Of a stretch of DNA of 40,071 nucleotides, positions 31,262 to 35,166 are shown one piece after another. How positions within the stretch are numbered: the first letter of the stretch is position 1; every line of letters starts with the position of its first letter. The position numbers were made by a program, and so were the translations under genes. This DNA comes from Amphritea sp. GTDB lineage: Bacteria > Pseudomonadota > Gammaproteobacteria > Pseudomonadales > Balneatricaceae. The stretch lies in contig JAIBCZ010000003.1 in the NCBI GenBank assembly GCA_024679645.1, forward strand, positions 1 through 40,071, in the 5' to 3' direction. Below the pieces are notes generated by a model, which was not told the DNA's origin, did not search any database, and worked only from the letters and a program-made list of their open reading frames with translations.

Positions 31262-31273
31262 GCCGGACGACTA

Positions 31274-31324
31274 AAACAAAAAAAGAGACTATATAAGTCA
31301 AGCCATTTACCTTTTGTGTGCATG
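31274..31324 (+). repeat. Left terminal inverted repeat
   Basis: The outer part is an A tract followed by GAGACTATATAAGT. The inner 26 bases (31299-31324, starting CAAGCCATTTACC and ending GTGTGCATG) match the right end with one difference. The next bases (AGGTAAGTGGCT, 31325-31336) are nearly complementary to AGCCATTTACCT at 31301-31312, so the left end can also fold on itself. Confidence 0.85.
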
Positions 31325-31362
31325 AGGTAAGTGGCTAATTACCCGCGAATCACCTAGGCTTA

Positions 31363-31376
31363 TGGTTATATAACCA
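31363..31376 (+). promoter_or_regulatory. 14-bp palindrome before transposase gene
   Basis: TGGTTATATAACCA is a perfect palindrome ending 17 bases before the transposase ATG (31394). It is AT-rich at its centre and could be both a -10 region and a binding site for a self-repressing protein. That role is inference. Confidence 0.5.
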
Positions 31377-31393
31377 GTGTTTAAGGTGCATTC

Positions 31394-33211
31394 ATGGGAC
31401 AAATATCTGGCCAAGCCTCACAGCACCGAGTACCTCCTCCAGAAAACGGCATTAACATCAATCGATGTGCCACCCCTACATGTCCGAACTTTGACGTCCC
31501 GGCTACAGCCAGTCGTTACGATCCAAACTACAAAGTGTCTGGTACAGGCAAAAATAGCTCTGCCCTTATGTGCCTCGGCTGTGGTCGAAGTTACATAATC
31601 AAGAGTAACCAGGCGATAGCTGATGAGTTGGCGCGCTTTGAAGCTAAACCGCAACTTTCAAATGTGTATCGGCAGGATGGTTATTCTTGTCACAACATGG
31701 AGTGTGAGAATTTCGGCCTTTATGCAGACGTGCCGAGCAATTTGTACCGGAAACGCGGTAAAACCTCCAGTGGTAATCCACGAATTCAGTGCCGAAGTTG
31801 CGGTATTACGTTCACCAGAGGATCTCAGAAGAGGAGAAGCCACCCCTCTGCTCGCACCTACGACAATGTCTGGTTGTTTAAGCTGCTGGTTAATCAGAAC
31901 AGTATCAATCGCATCATGGAATTGACTGAGTTGTCCCCACGGGCCATCTACAAGAAGATCGACATGTTCTATGAGCGCTGCTTGTTCTTTACAAAGCAAC
32001 GAGAGGCACAACTAAACCAAATGGACCTCAGATGGATGCGACTGGCGACGGATCGCCAGGAATATCAAGTCAATTGGACGCATCGAAAGGATAAGCGCAA
32101 TGTAATTCTTTCGGCCATCGGGTCTGCTGATAAAAGCAGCCGATATGTATTCGGTATGGACGTCAACTTCGATAGGTCGATAAACCTGAAAGACATAGAG
32201 GAATCGGATGCTTACAAGGCAGATGAGACCCTCAAAGACTACAACCGAACCTATGCCCGTATTTGGACACCCAGGGATTATTTGAAAGCGGTAAGGTCCA
32301 GCAAGGAATTTCGTAACCGCGCTGAAACCGCTATGAATGGGTATCTTGCTGGGAATACCCTCCCTCTCAGCGAAGCAGGATTGGAGTATATCCGGGCTCA
32401 GGTTGAAGAAGAGTTTGGCATGTTGCCAAGCGAAATCACTTCCACAACCCGCTTACCAGTCAGCGGCACGTTGGTCCGGTCTGAATACACCATGTACGCT
32501 CATTTCAAGCGCTTGAATGAACTTCTGGGTCATACTGGCGGGCTGCGGTTTTACCTTGATCAAGAGCCCGCCATTAATCGGGCGTGCTGCTTGGCCTTTG
32601 CCAAGAAGATTCGCGAAGGCTCATGCCATGTAGCTTACGTCAAAATTGACAAGGAACTCACCAATGACGAACGGCTGATTCGCGTAAATATCACAGAGAA
32701 AATGGTCAATGAAATTTTGAATGAGGGCCTTGCCCAAGACAAATACGGGGCGCACCGTGTTATCGCGGCAAGTGCTCTAAATACGCCATACCACTTTCCC
32801 AAAACTAAAGAAGCCTGGTTTTATGTTCCTGTTCATCGCATTTTTGAGGCTGAAAAATACGTATCGGTTCTGACTGACAGCAGTAGGCTGGGTCATGATC
32901 AGCTGGTATCAATGCTCGTGGACGCGTCACTTCACCCGATCGATAATTTCTTCCAGTTCGTCAGGCGCAGGCTCTCGCCCCTAGAGAGACCAATCCACTC
33001 GTCCTCCAACACTGGGCGCGTGTGGACGGGTAAATCCCCTTATAACCCAGACATGGTCCATAAGCTTCTTCAGATACTGAGAACCTATTTCAATTACTGC
33101 TTCAAAGGAGATGACGACCGCAAGACCCCTGCACATAGACTAGGGTTGGCGAAAGGGCCTGTAGAGATCAGAAAGATCCTCTATCCGGTGCATGGTGGTA
33201 TAGTGGATTGA
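31394..33211 (+). CDS. Zinc-ribbon DDE-type transposase, 605 aa
   Basis: Residues 25-63 and 99-136 each hold a C-x4-C ... C-x2-C zinc ribbon (Cys25/30/60/63 and Cys99/104/133/136). The second resembles the InsA zinc finger of IS1-like elements (GNPRIQCRSCGITF). A helix-turn-helix follows at about 160-190. The C-terminal part has candidate catalytic acids: Asp220 (RLATDRQ) or Asp256 (FGMDVNFD), Asp389 (RFYLDQEPAIN) and Glu531 (LSPLERPI). A KTPAHRLGL ending is common in DDE transposases. The double zinc ribbon and the length of 605 residues exceed usual IS1 or IS1595 proteins. An AAGG site precedes the ATG. It probably moves the element; catalytic residues are inferred by pattern only. Confidence 0.78.
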   Translation: MGQISGQASQHRVPPPENGININRCATPTCPNFDVPATASRYDPNYKVSGTGKNSSALMCLGCGRSYIIKSNQAIADELARFEAKPQLSNVYRQDGYSCHNMECENFGLYADVPSNLYRKRGKTSSGNPRIQCRSCGITFTRGSQKRRSHPSARTYDNVWLFKLLVNQNSINRIMELTELSPRAIYKKIDMFYERCLFFTKQREAQLNQMDLRWMRLATDRQEYQVNWTHRKDKRNVILSAIGSADKSSRYVFGMDVNFDRSINLKDIEESDAYKADETLKDYNRTYARIWTPRDYLKAVRSSKEFRNRAETAMNGYLAGNTLPLSEAGLEYIRAQVEEEFGMLPSEITSTTRLPVSGTLVRSEYTMYAHFKRLNELLGHTGGLRFYLDQEPAINRACCLAFAKKIREGSCHVAYVKIDKELTNDERLIRVNITEKMVNEILNEGLAQDKYGAHRVIAASALNTPYHFPKTKEAWFYVPVHRIFEAEKYVSVLTDSSRLGHDQLVSMLVDASLHPIDNFFQFVRRRLSPLERPIHSSSNTGRVWTGKSPYNPDMVHKLLQILRTYFNYCFKGDDDRKTPAHRLGLAKGPVEIRKILYPVHGGIVD

Positions 33212-33266
33212 GAAGTTACTGATATAGTAACTTGCCGTATTCAACCAGACTCTTAAGGACAAGATC

Positions 33267-33881
33267 ATGTTAATCCCTGTTCATGAAGGTGATATCAATC
33301 GCCTTATAGCTGCATTGGGTATCGATGGTAGCCCAGTACGTCTTGATCTCGAACCCAAGCCTCATTCATTACCCTGCGAGTGCTTTCCAAATGTGGAAAA
33401 GCAAGTGCAGAAACAAGGCGGTGAGATCGTCTACGGGTGGCAACTATGGCAATCGGGAAGCTTCTTCATTGAAGCTGAGTTTCATGCCATCTGGAGGGAC
33501 CCTGATGGTATTCTTCATGACATCACACCAAAACCTTTACCAACAATAACGCAAATACTGTTCGTAGAAGACGTTAACCGAACCTACCAAGGACAGCAGG
33601 TTAATAACGTCCGATTGAACCTATCGGGAAACAAGGTCGTAGACCATTTCCTGAAGCTCAGCGACAAGAAGTTTGAGATTGAGAATGCCGGTGATCGAGC
33701 CGATCAGCACCAGATTTCCCTGCAAGGTGATGAGCTTGAGATGTATGAAGGGCTCATGCGATTGCTGATGGATATGGAGCAGTTCATGAAAAGCGGGGCA
33801 ACTGTCCGAAGCCCTTGTTTATGTGGCAGTGGCGAGAAGTACAAGAAGTGTCATGGGCGAATGATTGAAGCGTTTGTCTAA
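33267..33881 (+). CDS. SEC-C motif passenger protein, unknown
   Basis: This is a 204-residue protein ending in a SEC-C zinc motif, PCLCGSGEKYKKCHG (residues 183-197). The N-terminal half has CEC (37-39), then YGWQLWQSGSFFIEAEFHAIW (56-76) and DPDGILHDITP (78-88), a conserved-looking module with His73 and acidic residues that might be a small metal site. It lies 55 bases after the transposase gene on the same strand and is probably co-transcribed. SEC-C tails occur on many proteins of mobile and defence-related loci, often as zinc-binding adaptors. No function can be assigned. Confidence 0.75.
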   Translation: MLIPVHEGDINRLIAALGIDGSPVRLDLEPKPHSLPCECFPNVEKQVQKQGGEIVYGWQLWQSGSFFIEAEFHAIWRDPDGILHDITPKPLPTITQILFVEDVNRTYQGQQVNNVRLNLSGNKVVDHFLKLSDKKFEIENAGDRADQHQISLQGDELEMYEGLMRLLMDMEQFMKSGATVRSPCLCGSGEKYKKCHGRMIEAFV

Positions 33882-33906
33882 TCAGTCTGTACGTTTTTAT
33901 ACAAAA

Positions 33907-33927
33907 GGGTTCTGATAAACAGAACCC
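33907..33927. terminator. Terminator between converging halves of element
   Basis: GGGTTCTG (33907-33914) pairs with CAGAACCC (33920-33927) around ATAAA. On the minus strand the stem is followed by TTTTGT, giving a better terminator for the toxin-antitoxin transcript than for the plus-strand genes. Confidence 0.75.
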
Positions 33928-33933
33928 CTCTCC

Positions 33934-33947
33934 ATTCAATATTTGAA
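33934..33947. repeat. Near-copy of the TA operator motif
   Basis: ATTCAATATTTGAA is the same motif as the palindrome at 34890-34903 with one extra T. It lies just past the 3' end of the antitoxin-like gene, so copies flank the pair on both sides. It may be a second binding site or coincidence in AT-rich DNA. Confidence 0.4.
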
Positions 33948-33952
33948 CGGAA

Positions 33953-34549
33953 TCAACTTGCAGCTGCAATGACTTTAAGTTCATCGAGCGTCTTCTGATT
34001 AAGACCATCCAGCACATCGTGCTTAGCTCGGACCGCAATTGCCTTTACGACATCGGCATCACTTCTGAGGTGGGCAGACTTCTCGATTGCCTTGAAGTCA
34101 GTTTTGATTGAGCGGCCTTTCACTGAAACCCTATACGTACCTTTTCCGGCAACAACGTCATCCTTCAATAGTTCAGATATTTCACCCGCTGGTATGGCTG
34201 CATTGGCCATCTTTTTCGCATAATAGCGAATCAACGTACCTTTAAAGTCGACAGTTGCACTGAGCTTATCACAGACCACGTTAAAGATGTCTTCGACCTG
34301 TACTGGTACTCGGCTGTCGATTGATTCCCTCTCTTGCTCTCGCTTTACAGTTTCCTGGACGCGAGCTAGGCTTTGGTGCGGAAAGCCACACACCGTGTCA
34401 CAACGATCACACACAATGGCAAGAGCGCCTTTAACTTTATTCTCACTCCCTCTAATTGGAAGGTCTCGAATCTGGTACGTGGTATCAACAAGACTTTTGC
34501 ACTCTTCACATAGGGCCTTGTCTTTATCACCCACTTTATAGATTTTCAT
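33953..34549 (-). CDS. MqsA-like zinc-domain antitoxin candidate
   Basis: This is a 198-residue protein read from the ATG at 34549, which follows AAGGGG at ideal spacing; the frame is open to 34579. The N-terminus has C14-x2-C17 and C47-x2-C50 around YQIRDLPIRGSENKVKGALAIVCDRC, the arrangement of the MqsA zinc domain (Cys pairs about a DIP-like strand). The C-terminal part (TDFKAIEKSAHLRSDADVVKAIAV and others) does not look like the usual XRE helix-turn-helix, which sets it apart. It starts ten bases after the toxin-like gene. Its role as antitoxin and autorepressor is inferred from the pairing, the zinc domain and the operator upstream. Confidence 0.6.
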   Translation of the reverse strand: MKIYKVGDKDKALCEECKSLVDTTYQIRDLPIRGSENKVKGALAIVCDRCDTVCGFPHQSLARVQETVKREQERESIDSRVPVQVEDIFNVVCDKLSATVDFKGTLIRYYAKKMANAAIPAGEISELLKDDVVAGKGTYRVSVKGRSIKTDFKAIEKSAHLRSDADVVKAIAVRAKHDVLDGLNQKTLDELKVIAAAS

Positions 34550-34559
34550 TGCTGACCCC

Positions 34560-34853
34560 TTATTCATGGATGCTAACAAAAACAGCGTTAGGATCCAGAA
34601 AGTACCATTTGATATACCATGTTTTCGCCTTCAAGATGTGGATCTCCACCCCATCCATCCAGTGATGCTCTCTGCTTTCATAATTATTCCCACGAGAACG
34701 GGTTATCAGTTCCCTTACTTCTGCCGTGGTAACTTGACCTGAATGAAGTAGGTTCTTTTGGTCGATATCAGACCGCGTCTCATGACGAATGCTTCCATCG
34801 TCAATGGATTCAAGAACCTTACGCTTTGCTTCCTTGAAGCCCATTCTTTCCAT
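34560..34853 (-). CDS. MqsR-like toxin candidate
   Basis: This is a 97-residue protein whose second half, HWMDGVEIHILKAKTWYIKW and VFVSIHE, resembles the core of MqsR/RelE-fold mRNA interferases (a W-x-D-V strand, then Y-x-K and a VxVSxxE end). The upstream half (RELITRSRGNNYESREH) fits the helix before it. As in mqsRA, the toxin gene comes first and the zinc-containing partner second. Similarity is by eye and not strong. Other possibilities are a small adaptor or a different RelE-like toxin. Transcription is from the promoter at 34867-34895. Confidence 0.55.
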   Translation of the reverse strand: MERMGFKEAKRKVLESIDDGSIRHETRSDIDQKNLLHSGQVTTAEVRELITRSRGNNYESREHHWMDGVEIHILKAKTWYIKWYFLDPNAVFVSIHE

Positions 34854-34866
34854 TTAGATAGCTCTT

Positions 34867-34895
34867 ATTGTACGACAGGTTTCGGGCAAATTCAA
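34867..34895 (-). promoter_or_regulatory. Promoter of the toxin-antitoxin pair
   Basis: On the minus strand, TTGAAT (34890-34895) is followed after exactly 17 bases by TACAAT (34867-34872), a near-consensus sigma-70 promoter 14 bases before the toxin-like start codon. Its -35 box is part of a perfect palindrome, so a repressor bound there would block RNA polymerase. Confidence 0.75.
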
Positions 34896-34903
34896 TATTG
34901 AAT
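34890..34903. promoter_or_regulatory. Perfect palindromic operator at TA promoter
   Basis: ATTCAATATTGAAT is a 14-bp perfect palindrome overlapping the -35 box of the toxin promoter. This is the usual place for an antitoxin-dependent operator. Binding by the MqsA-like protein is inferred; the sequence differs from the E. coli MqsA site. Confidence 0.65.
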
Positions 34904-34993
34904 CACTTTTGCGTTGCTTAGCGAATAATTCTATAGGTTGATTGATGCGCCATCAAAGCTAGATCCACTGAACAAGACTGTGCATTTTGATTC

Positions 34994-35034
34994 TTAAATA
35001 AAGAACCCAGCTAATGGCTGGATTCTTTATTTAA
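34994..35034. terminator. Strong hairpin inside right end of element
   Basis: TTAAATAAAGAA (34994-35005) pairs with TTCTTTATTTAA (35023-35034), and CCAGC (35007-35011) with GCTGG (35017-35021), with one mismatch between the two helices. It is a near-symmetric stem-loop with A and T flanks next to the right inverted repeat. It probably insulates the element from transcription entering or leaving. Confidence 0.8.
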
Positions 35035-35035
35035 C

Positions 35036-35085
35036 CATGCACACGAAAGGTAAATGGCTTGCATATAAGTCCCTTTTTTGTTTTT
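35036..35085 (-). repeat. Right terminal inverted repeat
   Basis: In reverse, this reads from an A tract through GGGACTTATATG to a 26-base core (35036-35061) matching the left end at 25 of 26 positions. It defines the right boundary of the element. Confidence 0.85.
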
Positions 35086-35166
35086 ACTAGCAAGTCGCGG
35101 AGCGACGTCTAACCACTAGCAACCCGCATAGCCACATCTAGCCAACCTGCAAAGCCGGTGGCCTGA

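Follow-up and report, generated by a model that had tools for sequence, protein, structure and literature searches.

A toxin-first gene pair in an Amphritea mobile element, with a predicted MqsR-fold toxin and an antitoxin predicted to join an MqsA-type zinc domain to a tandem ribbon-helix-helix half

MqsRA (YgiU-YgiT) of Escherichia coli is a toxin-antitoxin system in which the toxin gene comes first, the toxin belongs to the RelE superfamily, and the antitoxin is larger than the toxin and begins with a four-cysteine zinc domain (PMC4803016, PMC2791442; these and the other reports named below are cited from excerpts). A gene pair with the same order, a toxin of similar size and predicted superfamily and a larger antitoxin with the same N-terminal anatomy lies inside a mobile element in the stretch of DNA analysed here, 40,071 nt of contig JAIBCZ010000003.1 of Amphritea sp. 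(hereafter the window). The pair differs from MqsRA in that its toxin is unrecognisable by sequence and has a histidine where MqsR has K96, and in that the C-terminal DNA-binding domain of its antitoxin is predicted to be a tandem ribbon-helix-helix (RHH), whereas MqsA has an XRE helix-turn-helix (HTH). We consider it likely that the two genes form a toxin-first type II toxin-antitoxin operon, in which a toxin of MqsR/RelE fold is matched by an antitoxin that combines an MqsA-type zinc domain with a tandem RHH and represses its own operon.

Departures from the MqsA architecture have been described before. In a comprehensive survey, the partners linked to YgiU/MqsR were HTH proteins that also had either a zinc finger or a GepA domain (PMC2701414), and a later network study found the Panacea domain added to a zinc domain and HTH (PMC10440598). 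That PanA-type antitoxin (zinc domain, ZBD-HTH-Panacea) shows that a zinc domain can neutralise MqsR from within a protein of another build, as we predict for the present toxin; there the HTH is kept and Panacea added (PMC10440598), whereas here the HTH appears to be replaced. In a search of the literature on MqsA and RHH, no title among the matches listed named MqsA with an RHH domain; subscription journals lie mostly outside that search, and a description elsewhere is possible. Toxin-antitoxin pairs inside transposons are known as passengers of the Tn3 family, where the toxins are ParE, Gp49, PIN_3, PIN or HEPN and the name MqsR has no occurrence in the main text of the report (PMC7157771), while the transposase of the present element weakly matches IS1.

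The two genes and the two parts of the antitoxin are as follows; all coordinates are positions in the window unless a locus identifier (L0xx) is given.

34560..34853, minus strand: toxin-like gene, 97 aa, predicted MqsR/RelE-type fold (open reading frame (ORF), structure model, 9-member alignment)
33953..34549, minus strand: antitoxin-like gene, 198 aa, ATG at 34549 and stop at 33953 (ORF, 13-member alignment, structure model)
34322..34549, minus strand: antitoxin residues 1-76, MqsA-like zinc domain (C14, C17, C47, C50), predicted toxin-binding part (VIA-align 2, hhalign)
33956..34333, minus strand: antitoxin residues 73-198, predicted single-chain tandem RHH, DNA-binding part (model, VIA-align 2)

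Reading of the sequence confirmed both ORFs and their coordinates, with the toxin-like gene first and 10 bases (34550-34559) between its stop and the antitoxin start, as given by an earlier reading of the letters alone (the sequence-only reading). The antitoxin ribosome binding site, AAGGGG, overlaps the toxin stop codon; it is a good site, although 'ideal', as it had been called, is too strong. Because both genes recur adjacent to each other in distant relatives, their pairing goes beyond chance. Using tblastn, toxin relatives were found in eight plasmid records (Rhizobium, Acetobacter) and antitoxin relatives in 11, and the antitoxin adjoined the toxin in all eight records with a toxin relative. 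Scans of viral contigs added L015, L016, L018 and L021, a scan of genome contigs the Marinobacter locus L002, and genome searches L010, L013 and L014. In all, 17 loci besides the window, on plasmids, viral contigs and genome contigs, hold both genes or their remnants, and the toxin gene is upstream of the antitoxin gene in 18 of the 18 loci in which both were recognised. Identity to the window proteins is 26-36% for the aligned antitoxins and 40-50% for the toxins, and the annotated plasmid records seen label both genes hypothetical.

The family is rare. It was present in 2 of 95 related genomes and in 3 of 398 genomes of a phylum sample, own genome included in both, while the antitoxin profile matched 1 of 369 genomes of a class sample, which was the own genome. 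A search of 78 genomes of one further class, run without a positive control, found none, and phage records held no match to either the window toxin or the antitoxin of L021. On two of the viral contigs (L015 1520-2454 and L016 4001-4932) the pair comes immediately after a gene that, judged by its sequence motifs, appears to encode a phage tyrosine integrase and that in L016 is split over two overlapping frames.

The four cysteines at positions 14, 17, 47 and 50, proposed by the sequence-only reading as zinc ligands, are indeed present and are invariant in 13 of 13 aligned antitoxins, the window copy included. A structure model of the antitoxin built from seven sequences (predicted local distance difference test score (pLDDT) 85.4) has a zinc-ribbon-like N-terminal domain followed by a helix, and its C-terminal half consists of a strand-helix-helix unit (residues 75-82, 83-95 and 102-115), a short helix and a further strand-helix-helix unit (138-145, 148-159 and 164-179). 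The first two targets in Foldseek were full-length MqsA (3gn5_A, E-value (E) 0.0048) and chain E of the F relaxosome (9f0y_E, E 0.018). The Foldseek candidates were given a second look with VIA-align 2, on which the fold claims for both proteins mainly rest, and the N-terminal part (residues 12-76) aligned with MqsA chains 3gn5_B (Z 5.7, root-mean-square deviation (rmsd) 3.2, 61 residues) and 3hi2_C (Z 5.4, rmsd 3.1, 59/59). By hhalign, the N-domain profile scored 26.3 against an MqsA set limited to partners with at least four cysteines, the best of 50 shuffles reaching 23.0; a group of YgiT-finger loci was set aside. Profile searches against the MqsA family produced matches, none of them above threshold: YgiT/MqsA at E 0.024-0.025 in 2 of 13 antitoxins and PF15731 (MqsA) at E 0.16 in 1 of 13. 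The window antitoxin itself gave only weak zinc-finger or chance matches in Pfam, NCBIfam, PADLOC and PHROGs.

In the C-terminal half, the XRE HTH of MqsA is missing, as the sequence-only reading had observed, and the model has the two strand-helix-helix units in its place. Using VIA-align 2, this part (residues 73-193) matched chains E and G of the F relaxosome at Z 8.5-9.2 (9f10_E: Z 9.2, rmsd 3.2, 102/112 residues), with weaker matches to DndE (Z 5.5) and VirC2 (Z 4.3). From its fold and the report on the F relaxosome, in which the TraY polypeptide of the F plasmid contains a whole RHH dimer, we infer that chain E is TraY, a protein with two strand-helix-helix units in one chain, as in our model (PMC12117103). 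The C-terminal profile gave no alignment to MqsA C-termini (hhalign 11.1 over nine columns). VirC2 of pTi likewise has two strand-helix-helix units in one chain. The antitoxin differs from TraY and VirC2 in that no significant sequence match to either was found, and to our knowledge TraY, an oriT-binding relaxosome protein, has neither a zinc domain nor a toxin partner. We predict with confidence that the C-terminal half is a single-chain tandem RHH of TraY-like build. The description 'divergent antitoxin' was thus right, and the divergent half is now positively predicted to be a different DNA-binding fold. The sequence signals, weak as they are, agree with both halves: beside the zinc-domain matches, a PDB profile search with the 13-member antitoxin profile found the DUF1778 protein 7zg5 at E 0.41, aligned at the second strand, a suggestive RHH match. 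The best E among profile matches of antitoxin members, those to YgiT/MqsA and BrnA included, belongs to NF008671 (LexA regulated protein), which matches one member at E 0.0013.

For the toxin, an AlphaFold2 model from five sequences (mean pLDDT 84.7) was compared in the same way. MqsR came first in VIA-align 2 (3hi2_D, Z 8.1, rmsd 3.4, 86/91 residues; runner-up Z 4.0), with RelE-superfamily toxins or NTF2-like proteins in many of the lower rows, RelE-type chains having Z about 3 to 4. The window toxin had no match in Pfam, NCBIfam, PADLOC or PHROGs. For the window proteins, phmmer searches of the PDB gave chance-level matches only. Eighteen positions are invariant in nine of nine toxins, among them H64, H72, W79, Y80, K82, S94 and H96. 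When both families were used to seed an alignment, Y80, K82, S94 and H96 came to lie on MqsR Y81, K83, S94 and K96, so that all nine toxins have a tyrosine at the Y81 position and a histidine at the K96 position. The MqsR structure report pairs Y81 and K96 with RelE residues (PMC2791442), and in another MqsR substitution of a predicted catalytic tyrosine (Y97) abolished toxicity (PMC10440598). On a bolder version of our reading, which we think unlikely, the antitoxin arose by joining an MqsA-type toxin-binding domain to a single-chain RHH such as conjugation relaxosomes use, and the active site of the toxin is built on histidine, in contrast to MqsR. In mobile elements such an antitoxin, besides repressing its operon, may also act on the DNA of the element, coupling addiction to maintenance or transfer.

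Upstream of the toxin gene, the following sites were recognised.

34867..34895, minus strand: promoter-like site TTGAAT-17-TACAAT, whose spacer contains the operator (9/12 matches)
34870..34887, minus strand: candidate operator GCCCGA-N6-TCGTAC, 10/12 positions of GTACGA-N6-TCGTAC (2/500 shuffles reach the score)
34890..34903, no strand assigned: a further palindrome, ATTCAATATTGAAT, perfect over 14 bp, which overlaps with the -35 hexamer (the repeats listed at the other 14 loci do not include it)

The inverted repeat GTACGA-N6-TCGTAC is present upstream of the toxin gene with at least 10 of 12 positions in 17 of 18 loci, the exception being L087 with its rearranged upstream region. The best-scoring match in an 80-base range had 10-12 of 12 positions in 15 loci, while dinucleotide shuffles averaged 6.6-7.2 and at most 2 of 500 reached the observed score at any locus, in a test that is not independent of discovery since the motif was derived from the sequences on which it was scored. 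At several loci the repeat is seen by eye to be preceded by a -35 of the TTGA type and followed by a TA-rich -10. The 'strong promoter' of the sequence-only reading draws no support from the promoter scan alone, which found two promoter-like sites in the region against 2.0 expected from shuffles; its support comes from the inverted repeat, which the relatives have conserved in the same position. The palindrome ATTCAATATTGAAT (34890-34903) and another at the opposite end of the operon, TTCAATATTTGAA (33935-33947), are alike (direct reading).

An ordinary but diverged MqsRA member, whose antitoxin merely lost its HTH, would account for the gene order, the predicted fold, the zinc domain and the sub-threshold YgiT/MqsA and PF15731 matches. 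We nevertheless regard it as improbable, because the toxin has no MqsR profile match and because the C-terminal half, aligned across 13 antitoxins, is predicted to be a different DNA-binding fold with a conserved upstream repeat of its own. Since the toxin was not placed with MqsR by sequence comparison and the antitoxin is without the HTH of MqsA, the pair is better described as an MqsRA-like variant than as an MqsRA member; 'MqsRA-like', as the sequence-only reading put it, stands for the predicted fold, the gene order and the zinc domain and fails for the toxin sequence.

The loci also differ in how they have decayed. Both genes are intact in 10 of 18 (window, L003, L005, L086, L010, L014, L015, L016, L018 and L021), whereas a disrupted toxin stands beside a full-length antitoxin in 8 of 18 and an intact toxin beside a broken antitoxin in 0 of 18, a ratio that carries a sampling bias in that toxin and antitoxin queries were both used but L018 and L021 came from antitoxin queries alone. 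The first two thirds of the toxin are absent in L002, the usual start codon in L004, and L013 has an in-frame stop; L087 is rearranged, and L006, L011, L012 and L088 have frameshifts, L012 also lacking the usual start. Rhizobium accounts for five of the eight disrupted copies. As the antitoxin is twice as long, undirected decay would strike it more often. Antitoxin relatives without a toxin recognised alongside (L007, L008, L017, L022 and L023-L026) were kept outside the 18-locus tally; toxins were sought by tblastn in L007, L008 and L017 and among ORFs of at least 60 aa on one strand in L022, L023, L024 and L026. Six of them (L007, L008, L022, L023, L024 and L026) fit the same order of loss. 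L023, L024 and L026 hold a truncated antitoxin only, with no toxin ORF of at least 60 aa seen, and share a neighbour gene with L021, which has a full pair. In L022 (4001-4600), a 113-kb viral contig, a full-length orphan antitoxin with an RHH-like C-terminus was found, with no toxin ORF of at least 60 aa seen upstream. The conserved upstream repeat (17/18) together with the toxin-only decay (8/18 against 0/18) argues for an autoregulated type II toxin-antitoxin system.

Several results weigh against this conclusion. The loci were counted because both genes were recognised in them, so that linkage there is by selection, and they are not independent, 9 of 18 being Rhizobium or Acetobacter relatives. 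The structure models were built from few sequences (five for the toxin, seven for the antitoxin), with Foldseek on its own neither protein had a target at E 0.001 or lower (best E for the toxin 0.18), and VIA-align 2 itself cautions that a common arrangement can yield a Z of around 8, or in helical folds of as much as about 13. Sequence matches of the antitoxin to RHH families are all weak (RHH_1 at E 0.19 in 1 of 8 C-terminal halves, BrnA at E 0.056 in 1 of 13 antitoxins), and the window's own operator is imperfect, its left arm being degenerate (GCCCGA). The toxin had no Pfam match in nine of nine members at E up to 1, the MqsR profile PF15723 included, and NCBIfam gave the nine members incidental matches only. 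By hhalign it scored 15.3 against 11 MqsR proteins, with 2 of 50 shuffled alignments higher, and its profile scored better against the unrelated MqsA N domain (17.1). These 11 were the full-length proteins among 13 read from 18 matches, L034, L038, L042, L043 and L045 being left out for internal stops or partial matches and L039 and L041 for length. Finally, type II toxins are usually basic, and the toxin has an isoelectric point of 7.0 or lower in 6 of 8 pairs. With MqsR best in the structure comparison and the hhalign score within the range of shuffles, the evidence supports a toxin similar to MqsR in predicted fold and does not demonstrate, at the sequence level, that the two share an ancestor.

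The element that carries the pair, and its other genes, are as follows.

31274..35085, no strand assigned: mobile element, about 3.8 kb, with terminal inverted repeats of about 50 bp (repeat scan; exact ends by direct reading)
31394..33211, plus strand: transposase-like protein of 605 aa, IS1-related (NF033558, E 3.4e-6, does not reach the cut-off)
33267..33881, plus strand: SEC-C motif passenger protein, 204 aa (PF02810 above cut-off; phage family phrog_37148, E 2.1e-41)

Terminal inverted repeats at 31273-31324 and 35036-35084, 87% identical over about 51 bp, confirmed that the pair lies inside the element. ACTA flanks it on both sides (31270-31273 and 35086-35089, direct reading); at four bases the repeat is too short to establish a target duplication. 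Direct reading also showed a stem-loop, GGGTTCTG/CAGAACCC (33907-33927), in the space between the SEC-C gene and the antitoxin gene, which converge; the stem-loop is followed on the minus strand by a T-rich tail and is absent from the listing of the promoter scan. The own genome, in an assembly that is 76% complete, has one copy of the element, and it is the only one of 95 related genomes with a transposase relative; 129 plasmid records have one, 90 of them Enterococcus. The pair was not found in five transposase-relative loci that were opened (L080-L084). In 20 loci of 1.5 to 10 kb, 17 with the pair and three with orphan antitoxins, neither the transposase nor the SEC-C protein had a relative. 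On these two results the pair is best read as a passenger. The term 'transposon-stabilising' had the location as its sole basis and stays a guess, given the lack of a transposase relative at those 17 and three loci.

These observations bear on the idea that the genes are no toxin-antitoxin pair at all but a regulator and a small partner controlling the transposon, the tandem RHH protein serving as a TraY-like accessory factor. A relaxosome protein is the best match for the C-terminal fold and the pair does sit inside a transposon, yet the 20 related loci are free of transposase relatives and the five transposase loci of the pair, the repeat belongs to the promoter region of the pair itself and decay hits the toxin alone, which makes this idea a little less probable still than a diverged MqsRA. 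Least probable is a HigBA/RelBE-type system of reversed gene order and unrelated to MqsR, suggested by RelE and HigB among Foldseek's first rows for the toxin but at odds with the Z of 8.1 for MqsR against about 3 to 4 for RelE-type chains and with the MqsA-type zinc domain of the antitoxin.

The reading we prefer, an autoregulated toxin-antitoxin operon, has an observed part in the gene order, the predicted folds, the conserved repeat and the direction of decay, and by its anatomy the pair should work like MqsRA. We infer toxicity, neutralisation and RNase activity: the 97-aa toxin, probably an RNase of MqsR/RelE fold, would stop translation, and the 198-aa antitoxin would bind it through the MqsA-type zinc domain, as the predicted fold suggests, and neutralise it as in MqsRA. 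In that system, the N-terminal domain of MqsA binds MqsR without blocking its active site (PMC2791442). The tandem RHH half would repress the operon through GTACGA-N6-TCGTAC in the promoter spacer, a repeat that is conserved and to which binding is presumed. Each antitoxin chain would supply a complete pseudo-dimeric binding unit, and since the TACGA half-sites are 11 bp apart, about one helical turn, two chains per operator are expected. By analogy with type II systems at large, the toxin would outlast its shorter-lived antitoxin and be set free once the operon is lost, and the pair would serve any element carrying it as an addiction module.

If this is true, the zinc domain of MqsA is a transferable toxin-binding module, and the same kind of toxin recognition has been wired to an unrelated DNA-binding fold and its operator. 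The pair would then be a direct test case for the exchangeability of antitoxin DNA-binding domains, and the conserved histidines of the toxin would offer a handle on how MqsR-fold toxins cut RNA. As no curated profile tried matches the toxin and both genes carry the label hypothetical, such pairs are likely to have been missed in counts of toxin-antitoxin systems.
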